Positions 15,806 to 37,371 of a DNA stretch of 64,000 bases are shown here, one piece after another. The notes below the pieces were generated by a model that saw only the letters and a program-made list of their open reading frames with translations, was not told the DNA's origin and searched no databases. Both the position numbers and the translations under genes were made by a program. Within the stretch, counting starts at the first letter, position 1. Every line of letters begins with the position of its first letter. This stretch comes from Sphaerobacter thermophilus DSM 20745 (lineage in GTDB: Bacteria > Chloroflexota > Chloroflexia > Thermomicrobiales > Thermomicrobiaceae): contig NC_013523.1 of NCBI RefSeq assembly GCF_000024985.1, forward strand, positions 1,674,001 through 1,738,000. Reading direction: 5' to 3'.

Positions 15806-16558
15806 TCACCCGGACGATGAGTGGATCGTCCCGGGGCGACCCCGGCCTTCAGCCGCCAGGCGCCGGAGCTCCGATTCCGGCATCCGCCAGGAGACGAGGA
15901 CGAGCCAGATCATCCACACCAGGCTCAGCACCCAGGCCAGCACGATCTCGATCGACAGCGTTTGCGAGAAGCCCTCGGCGCCAACCACCCAGCCCTGGAC
16001 CAGATAGACGAGGCCGGACAGGCCCATCAGGAACGCGATGGGCCACGGGACCCACGCCGTCCGCACGACCGCGACTGAAAACAGGAGCAGGGCGAGGCCA
16101 AGCGCATAGTCGTGGTAGCTCCGCATCCCCCACTCGATCCAGCGGATGGCCTCGGCGCTCGCGAAGCGCGCCGCCTTCTCGGCGTCCGGGGCGCGTACCC
16201 ACGCAGCATCGGCCTGCTTGTTGGCGACCCCGTCGACCGCCTGGAGGGCGCCGTACAGCGCGAGCGCGACCCCGGCCAAGACGGCACCGAATCGTCCTGC
16301 CCATCTGGCCGTGCCCGCCCGCAGATCCACGCCGAAGTAGAGCGCGAGCAGCCCGGCAAGCAAGATCCCCATGGCCACGAACTGGCCGACGTGGACCACC
16401 GTCCAGTTCCCACTGCCGGCGTACACGGCGAAGATGGTGGGATGGTCATTGGCCTCTCCACCGGCGTGGAGCTGGGTGACCCCGATGTACAGGAGTTGTC
16501 CCACGAGCAGCAACGCGGCCGACAGGCGCAGCGATGCGCCGGAGGTGGTATTGTCCAT
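15806..16558 (-). CDS. Hypothetical multi-pass membrane protein
   Basis: This 250-residue protein has about six to seven hydrophobic helices. The ATG at 16558 follows GAGGGG and starts MDNTTSGASLRLSAALLLVG. A longer frame to 16630 has no site. Features include an N-terminal helix, HVGQFVAMGILLAGLLALYFG, a polar loop with an Ala/Glu-rich helix (DAEKAARFASAEAIRW), and a C-terminal pair VLAWVLSLVWMIWLVLVSW. The layout resembles DUF4386-type membrane proteins, but that assignment is only a suggestion. Confidence 0.55.
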   Translation of the reverse strand: MDNTTSGASLRLSAALLLVGQLLYIGVTQLHAGGEANDHPTIFAVYAGSGNWTVVHVGQFVAMGILLAGLLALYFGVDLRAGTARWAGRFGAVLAGVALALYGALQAVDGVANKQADAAWVRAPDAEKAARFASAEAIRWIEWGMRSYHDYALGLALLLFSVAVVRTAWVPWPIAFLMGLSGLVYLVQGWVVGAEGFSQTLSIEIVLAWVLSLVWMIWLVLVSWRMPESELRRLAAEGRGRPGTIHSSSG

Positions 16559-16785
16559 GCCCGGACCCCTCGTGTAGCGCTCCGGTCGACTCCCTCTAGC
16601 GCAAGACGCGCGCAAGCCACTTACCACCACGAGAGCAACTCCGACCAGCAGGAAGCGGTAATGGCCACTCTCACGGCCGTCCCTCTACGCGCACCACGAT
16701 CCGATGTCAACCTGGTGGGCGTGAATTCGGCTGTGACTCGACGAACCGGTGCGATGGGCGATTGCCAGATGTCAGGGAATGGGAC

Positions 16786-16815
16786 TTGACAGAGACCCTG
16801 GGAGTCCAGTACGAT
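16786..16815 (+). promoter_or_regulatory. Promoter of the metX-metY leader
   Basis: TTGACA at 16786-16791 and TACGAT at 16810-16815 are separated by 18 bases. The pair lies about 26 bases before the SAM riboswitch, so transcription would begin just ahead of the aptamer. Confidence 0.65.
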
Positions 16816-16840
16816 CAGCGCCACAAGTGAATATGGCCTA

Positions 16841-16942
16841 CGCTCATCCAGAGTGGTGGAGGGAACGGCCCTGCGAAGCCCGGCAACCAGCGCGTACTGC
16901 GCCAGGTGCCAATGCCGGCGGACAGTGTCCGCACGATGAGCG
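16841..16942 (+). promoter_or_regulatory. SAM-I (S-box) riboswitch aptamer
   Basis: The conserved S-box core is clear: GGTGGAGGGA, GGCCC, GAAGCCCGGCAACC and GGTGCCAAT occur in order with normal spacing. P1 is a perfect 8-bp helix between 16841-16848 and 16935-16942. It is followed at 16957-16984 by an intrinsic terminator, so this is a transcriptional OFF switch: S-adenosylmethionine binding stabilises P1 and allows termination before metX. It is the first of two tandem sensors. Confidence 0.95.
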
Positions 16943-16956
16943 AACGAATGAAGGCC

Positions 16957-16984
16957 CCCTCCACCTGGTGTGGAGGGTTTTTTG
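16957..16984 (+). terminator. Intrinsic terminator of the SAM riboswitch
   Basis: An 8-bp stem (16957-16964 with 16970-16977) with a 5-base loop is followed by six T residues at 16978-16983. It serves as the expression platform of the upstream S-box. Confidence 0.9.
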
Positions 16985-17007
16985 ATCCCTCCCACAGCCA
17001 AGCAGAC

Positions 17008-17248
17008 GGCCAGCAACGGCGATGACGAGGAGAGTAGCCCGGAAACCACGGCTCTAGCGAGCCGCGACGGTGGAAGGCGGCGCACGGGTGCCGGGTGAAG
17101 ATGACCTCCGAGCCGCGGGCTGAACCGGGCAGTTGCCCCCAGTAGGTACCGCCGGGTTGACCTCCGTTATCCAGGTCAGGGTGCATACGCACCCACTGAG
17201 GTCCGCGTCGCGAGGCGCGGGCGAAGCGGGGTGGTACCACGGGCTCTA
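17008..17248 (+). promoter_or_regulatory. T-box leader, probable methionine-tRNA sensor
   Basis: The near-invariant T-box sequence GGGTGGTACCACGGG lies at 17228-17243. Its TGGT bulge can pair with the ACCA end of an uncharged tRNA. A long stem I region from about 17008 includes AGCGAGCC and GGTGGAAGG. GAAG is followed by ATG at 17101-17103, the position expected for the specifier, which matches methionine. A terminator follows at 17250-17283. Uncharged tRNA-Met binding would favour the antiterminator and allow metX-metY transcription. The exact 5' boundary is approximate. Confidence 0.88.
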
Positions 17249-17249
17249 G

Positions 17250-17283
17250 CGCCCGTCCCCGAGGCCGGGGACGGGCGTTTTGT
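17250..17283 (+). terminator. Intrinsic terminator of the T-box
   Basis: A 12-bp stem pairs 17250-17261 with 17266-17277 around an AGGC loop and is followed by TTTT. Its 5' side is adjacent to the T-box sequence, as in the T-box terminator/antiterminator switch. Confidence 0.85.
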
Positions 17284-17348
17284 ATTCCCCGCCCCGGCCG
17301 ATGGCAGGCACCAGGGCTGAGCAACCTTGACCGCCGCGGGAGGGGAAC

Positions 17349-19899
<2,551 letters not shown>

Positions 19900-36914: not shown

Positions 36915-37289
36915 ATTGAATGGCGTGGGCAGGACGGTCGCTGGCCGTTCCGGCCAGAGGAAAGTCCGAGCTGCATAGAGCGAGGGTGCCCGGCGAAAGC
37001 CGGGGCAGCGTTCGCCGGTGGCGCTGACAGTCCAGATCGGCACCGTGGCGGGTACCCCGCCGCGGTGAGAGCAACAGAGACCAATGCCGGGCCCTCTGCG
37101 GTCCGGAGTGAAAAGGGCAATCCTCCCCGCAGCAATCTCCGAATGGGCCGCTATCAGGTTGCTCGCCGAGGCCCGAAGTCGAGAGCAGCCACGGAGGCGA
37201 CGACGTGGCCGGTCGGTGGCCACGAGCCATCGGCCGAGACAGATGACCGTCAAGAACAGAACTCGGCTTACTCGCCCACGCCATTCAAT
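36915..37289 (+). ncRNA. rnpB: RNase P RNA (type A)
   Basis: The gene starts and ends with a perfect 16-bp P1 helix (36915-36930 with 37274-37289). The conserved GAGGAAAGTCCGAGCT near the 5' end and CAAGAACAGAACTCGGCTTA near the 3' end form P4 and flanking elements. Internal AGTGAAAAGGG and GCCCGAAGTC elements also fit. About 375 bases is normal. The RNA is the catalytic part of RNase P, which matures tRNA 5' ends. It lies between two tRNA genes on the same strand. Confidence 0.93.
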
Positions 37290-37294
37290 GACAT

Positions 37295-37371
37295 GGTGCC
37301 TCTAGCTCAATTGGCAGAGCACTGGTCTGTGGAACCAGGGGTTACGGGTTCAAGCCCCGTGAGGCACCCCA
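37295..37371 (+). tRNA. tRNA-His (GTG anticodon) with encoded G-1
   Basis: The acceptor stem GTGCCTC/GAGGCAC is extended by G at 37295 opposite C at 37368, the histidine identity pair. The anticodon loop CTGTGGA gives GTG. The T loop is GGTTCAAGC. CCA is encoded (37369-37371). It begins six bases after rnpB. Confidence 0.95.

Follow-up and report, generated by a model that had tools for sequence, protein, structure and literature searches.

A SAM-I riboswitch and a methionine T-box stand in series in the metX-metY leader of Sphaerobacter thermophilus

We analyzed a 64,000-nt stretch of the S. thermophilus genome (hereafter the window) and found that a SAM-I (S-box) riboswitch and a methionine T-box lie, in this order, behind a single predicted promoter in the leader of metX-metY, an arrangement that is conserved in relatives. 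In the best explanation, which we hold with high confidence, metX-metY is controlled by two riboswitches that follow one another on a single transcript, each complete and each able to terminate on its own. The features of the locus are as follows, in window coordinates.

16786-16815, + strand: sigma-70-type promoter TTGACA-18-TACGAT, the sole promoter-like site within 16500-17500
16841-16942, + strand: SAM-I (S-box) aptamer (RF00162, 86.9 bits)
16855-16863, + strand: GGUGGAGGG, 5' strand of aptamer P2 and proposed antiterminator partner of terminator 1 (perfect complement of 16957-16965)
16957-16983, + strand: predicted intrinsic terminator 1, an 8-bp stem (hairpin 16957-16977) with the T6 tail TTTTTT
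17013-17263, + strand: T-box leader, from stem I to the antiterminator (RF00230, 71.9 bits, E 1.4e-15)
17101-17103, + strand: specifier codon ATG (Met), in the context GAAG-ATG-ACC
17228-17260, + strand: T-box antiterminator, with the UGGU bulge (17232-17235) facing the tRNA ACCA end
17248-17286, + strand: predicted intrinsic terminator 2, a 14-bp stem (hairpin 17248-17279) followed by TTGTATT
17349-18473, + strand: metX, homoserine O-acetyltransferase (NF001209, 482 bits, cut-off 331)
18580-19899, + strand: metY, O-acetylhomoserine sulfhydrylase (TIGR01326, 653.6 bits, cut-off 495.1)

The identities of MetX and MetY were confirmed with these NCBIfam models. The initial annotation had described a complete S-box aptamer with its terminator and a complete T-box with an ATG specifier, and covariance models of Rfam matched both elements. 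The aptamer scored above the curated cut-off (RF00162 gathering score, 44.4). The T-box aligned over the full RF00230 model (positions 1-219), with a score below the gathering score of 93; it was thus missed by a default Rfam scan, which uses that cut-off, and was recovered in E-value mode. This gathering score is a screening cut-off. Nine of the 11 T-boxes of the S. thermophilus genome score below it, and RF00230 gave matches in five of 14 control genomes, in only two of them above the cut-off.

Next, eight tandem leaders were compared, namely the window metX leader, a second tandem of the same genome (L013), two from the sister species G041, and one each from G033, G029, G134, and G071. All eight share TTGACA, SAM-I, terminator 1, the GAA-N-ATG specifier, UGGU, and the antiterminator; TTGACA does not vary, and each leader has a −10-like hexamer at the same place. 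The P1 helix of SAM-I showed standard pairs in 56 of 56 cells, and a terminator with an exclusive alternative pairing follows the aptamer in these leaders. Every leader showed the hairpin and U-tract of terminator 1; in L052, a U-A pair has become A-U, a compensatory change. As MAFFT misaligns terminator 1 in some leaders, its arms were compared through the fold of each sequence. The 5' arm in the window, CCCUCCACC, is the perfect complement of GGUGGAGGG, and a complementarity of 7-9 nt between this arm and the aptamer strand was found in 8/8 leaders. In G071, the 5' arm is CCACCAC, the 3' arm is changed to match, and the arm has its complement in the adjacent GUGGUGG. Our assignment of the antiterminator 1 strand is made from the sequence only; the complementarity in the eight leaders supports the GGUGGAGGG strand, short of proof. 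RNA polymerase would start just 5' of the aptamer; by analogy with the known families, the aptamer would fold and terminator 1 would form when SAM is bound. Without SAM, the 5' arm of terminator 1 could be taken up by the GGUGGAGGG strand, and polymerase would pass.

The T-box sequence with its UGGN bulge was found inside the antiterminator (GGGGUGGUACCACG), where 79 of 80 cells are paired and the bulge is invariant. Most antiterminator columns never vary, and the helix therefore gives little covariation evidence. The segment GCCCGUCCCC is common to the antiterminator and terminator 2, giving competing structures; both platforms, SAM-I and T-box, thus contain mutually exclusive structures, with compensatory changes. 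The specifier, which the initial annotation had assigned to methionine, is ATG in all eight leaders and matches the pathway. Again by analogy with the family, the ATG specifier of the downstream T-box would then read the CAU anticodon, and only uncharged tRNA-Met would hold the antiterminator through pairing of its ACCA end with the UGGU bulge; otherwise, terminator 2 would form. All four CAU-anticodon tRNA genes of S. thermophilus carry A73, matching UGGU. This also accords with a variant that is compatible with the best explanation, in which the tRNA sensed by the T-box is initiator tRNA-fMet instead of elongator tRNA-Met and the second input is the initiation pool, as might be expected from the met T-box of Staphylococcus aureus, which prefers initiator tRNA (PMC3771891). 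Nevertheless, none of the sequence features examined separates initiator from elongator, and elongator tRNA-Met is the default ligand, so we regard the variant as rather unlikely. Elsewhere in the window, a class A RNase P RNA (36922-37368) immediately precedes a tRNA-His gene of the same orientation, with a gap of ~10 bases.

The earlier proposal that each switch has its own terminator holds more firmly for terminator 1 than for terminator 2. The terminator 2 hairpin is strong and present in 8/8 leaders, and three of its pairs have changed on both sides. The quality of its U-tract differs, though: the window copy has a fair one, G029, G134, and the two MetE-like copies have poor ones, and G071 has none; hence, termination may be partial in the leaders where this tract is weak or absent. 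Such tails, together with related genera that keep only SAM-I before metX, could be taken to mean that SAM-I regulates nearly alone, followed by a T-box that is leaky or in decay and whose terminator lacks a good U-tract. We consider this improbable, since the eight leaders retain the specifier, the T-box sequence, and the antiterminator although identity across the rest of the T-box part ranges over 53-95%, the 14-bp stem in the window is followed by TTGTATT, and imperfect tails are likewise carried by other T-boxes of the S. thermophilus genome.

Terminator-like sites within 16500-17500 numbered only two (16957-16977 and 17248-17279), and a scan of the same interval placed nothing resembling a promoter in the ~30 nt that separate terminator 1 from the T-box. 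Because one predicted promoter is followed by two stops in series, both inputs would be required, and full transcription would need low SAM together with uncharged tRNA-Met (NOT A AND B). The initial annotation had proposed this dual requirement, and it follows from the conserved anatomy as the predicted mode of regulation. An unrecognised promoter in the gap would instead let the T-box act alone, comparable to adenine/T box(Tyr) tandems, of which the one in Clostridium botulinum has such an intervening promoter according to PMC9481103. Here the gap is short and poorly conserved as well as devoid of a promoter-like site in the scan, which makes this reading extremely improbable.

We also observed that the segment 3' of terminator 2 (17286-17349) folds into a hairpin at −32.9 kcal/mol, in which the metX ribosome-binding site GGGAGGGG is paired. 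A translational layer is thus possible, and the T-box could even act also or mainly in this way, the read-through RNA hiding the ribosome-binding site (~17286-17349) until relieved by tRNA. This was judged quite improbable: the pairing strand of the hairpin lies outside the T-box switch, the sequence of the hairpin is absent from the MetE-like copy, and the fold was examined in one sequence.

The conservation of the tandem order, which the initial annotation had proposed to check in related genomes, was confirmed in G041, G033, G029, G134, and G071. The sister species G041 retains both tandems, before metX (L017) and before the MetE-like gene (L018). The metX tandem was also found in G033, G029, and G134, metagenome-assembled genomes of one related genus, and in G071, a metagenome-assembled genome from another family of the same order. 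At the metX loci of G026, G031, G075, G105, G035, the g2 genomes, and G053, SAM-I lies ~200-250 bases 5' of metX, compared with ~445-585 in the tandem leaders, which leaves no room for a T-box; a genome-wide T-box search found none at the metX loci of G026, G031, G035, G075, and G105. With metX preceded by SAM-I alone in other close genera, the T-box is lineage-variable, having been either added to a SAM-I leader or lost from it. A pattern scan for SAM-I plus T-box across the collection, which allowed only a 30-nt spacing range and is thus no measure of how widespread the tandem is, gave seven stretches. Five belong to the relatives named above; the other two, L058 (Bacteroidales) and L062 (Rhodothermales), showed neither element in Rfam and were rejected as chance matches. 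A plasmid search with the leader returned S-box-sized pieces only.

We then considered the tandem against the whole S. thermophilus genome (3,993,764 bp, two contigs), where four SAM-I and 11 T-box matches were found. By simple arithmetic, ~0.0006 same-strand SAM-I/T-box neighbours within 100 nt would be expected by chance, versus two found. The relevant features outside the window are listed below.

C1:2034119-2033708, − strand: second SAM-I/T-box tandem (L013), upstream of the MetE-like gene
L013:7533-8576 (genome C1:2033575-2032532), − strand: MetE-like protein, 348 aa, downstream of the second tandem
L014:3296-3406: SAM-I without T-box, before mtnA-ahcY-metK (covariance match)
L015:5373-5478: SAM-I without T-box, before metNIQ (covariance match)
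L098:802-1893 (genome C2), − strand: sole PF01717 protein of the genome by Pfam, a short core-MetE-type ORF

The second tandem likewise comprises a promoter of its own, a terminator with a T6 tail, an ATG specifier, and a second hairpin. Compared with the window copy, it is 95% identical over the aptamer, 83% over the T-box, and 51% over the segment that separates them. The two copies look like paralogues, as they are closer to each other than to any other genus. Thus, two of the four SAM-I elements are joined to a T-box (metX-metY and the MetE-like gene) and two stand alone (mtnA-ahcY-metK and metNIQ), and the genes behind both kinds of leader fit the proposed model.

The 348-aa MetE-like protein matched no Pfam or NCBIfam model. 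HxCxGD and CGxGRR are kept across its family, which aligns weakly with the sole PF01717 protein of the genome (hhalign 85%), and the MetH domains PF02965 and PF02574 were not found in the S. thermophilus genome. MetE proteins share a conserved zinc motif, HxCxnC (PMC7005905). On account of these motifs, the weak PF01717 alignment, and the absence of PF02965 and PF02574, the MetE-like protein is a candidate methionine synthase; the PF01717 protein is an equally good candidate. Relatives of the MetE-like protein (58-64% identity) in G053, G055, and G111 showed no SAM-I or T-box motif in the flanks fetched, and plasmid-borne relatives in Arthrobacter and Rhodococcus carry the annotation "hypothetical". 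We tentatively suggest, as the less probable side of the question, that the second tandem governs an undescribed, Pfam-negative MetE-like methionine synthase (or homocysteine methyltransferase), the genome having no recognisable MetH, and, as part of the same suggestion, that the two-input gate would then govern the whole homoserine-to-methionine route as a regulon.

The tandem offers a clear natural two-input RNA gate that would read the cofactor (SAM) and the amino acid (via tRNA) separately. Within one genome, it marks biosynthetic genes, and the genes for SAM recycling and methionine uptake are marked by a lone SAM-I; the tandem also points to an unannotated candidate methionine synthase. 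Furthermore, close relatives mix tandem and SAM-only metX leaders, which provides matched pairs for asking why a second sensor was added.

The initial annotation had called the series arrangement unusual; this stands, although the arrangement has already been published. A 2022 study (PMC9481103) describes, in its accessible text, SAM-I/T box(Met) tandems that precede metX and metY, predicts the logic NOT A AND B for them, and counts seven in its Table 2 and two in one sentence of the text. The window agrees with these in the two classes, their order, Met specificity, metX/metY targets, and predicted logic, and we see no difference in kind from what that text gives; the metX-metY tandem is therefore already known in kind. 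Our literature search found no earlier report of the tandem in Sphaerobacter. The window locus may nonetheless be among the examples of that study, because it searched RefSeq 80 and the publication of the S. thermophilus genome dates from 2010 (PMC3035262). Beyond its accessible text, our analysis adds the relatives among metagenome-assembled genomes, the paralogous copy before the MetE-like gene, the presence and absence across genera, and the conservation of each element.

Other known leaders resemble the window in part. One known tandem carries the same two elements on one leader in the opposite order, whereas SAM-I comes first in the window. A T-box SAM combination was reported for ssuABC in Bacillota (PMC12452182), with metX not mentioned. 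The S. aureus metICFE leader (PMC3771891) likewise places a Met T-box before methionine biosynthesis genes, but there the T-box stands instead of an S-box and prefers initiator tRNA. In the SAM-I/AdoCbl tandem (cited in PMC9481103 as its reference 25), SAM-I also comes first and is followed by an independent riboswitch; in contrast to the window, this second riboswitch responds to coenzyme B12, and the two combine in NOR logic. Finally, the tRNA-sensing SAM-I of Xanthomonas (PMC7270179) reads SAM and uncharged tRNA in one met leader, as is proposed for the window; its abstract describes no T-box, and a single SAM-I element does both, primarily at the level of translation, whereas the window leader would divide the two inputs between two elements in series.
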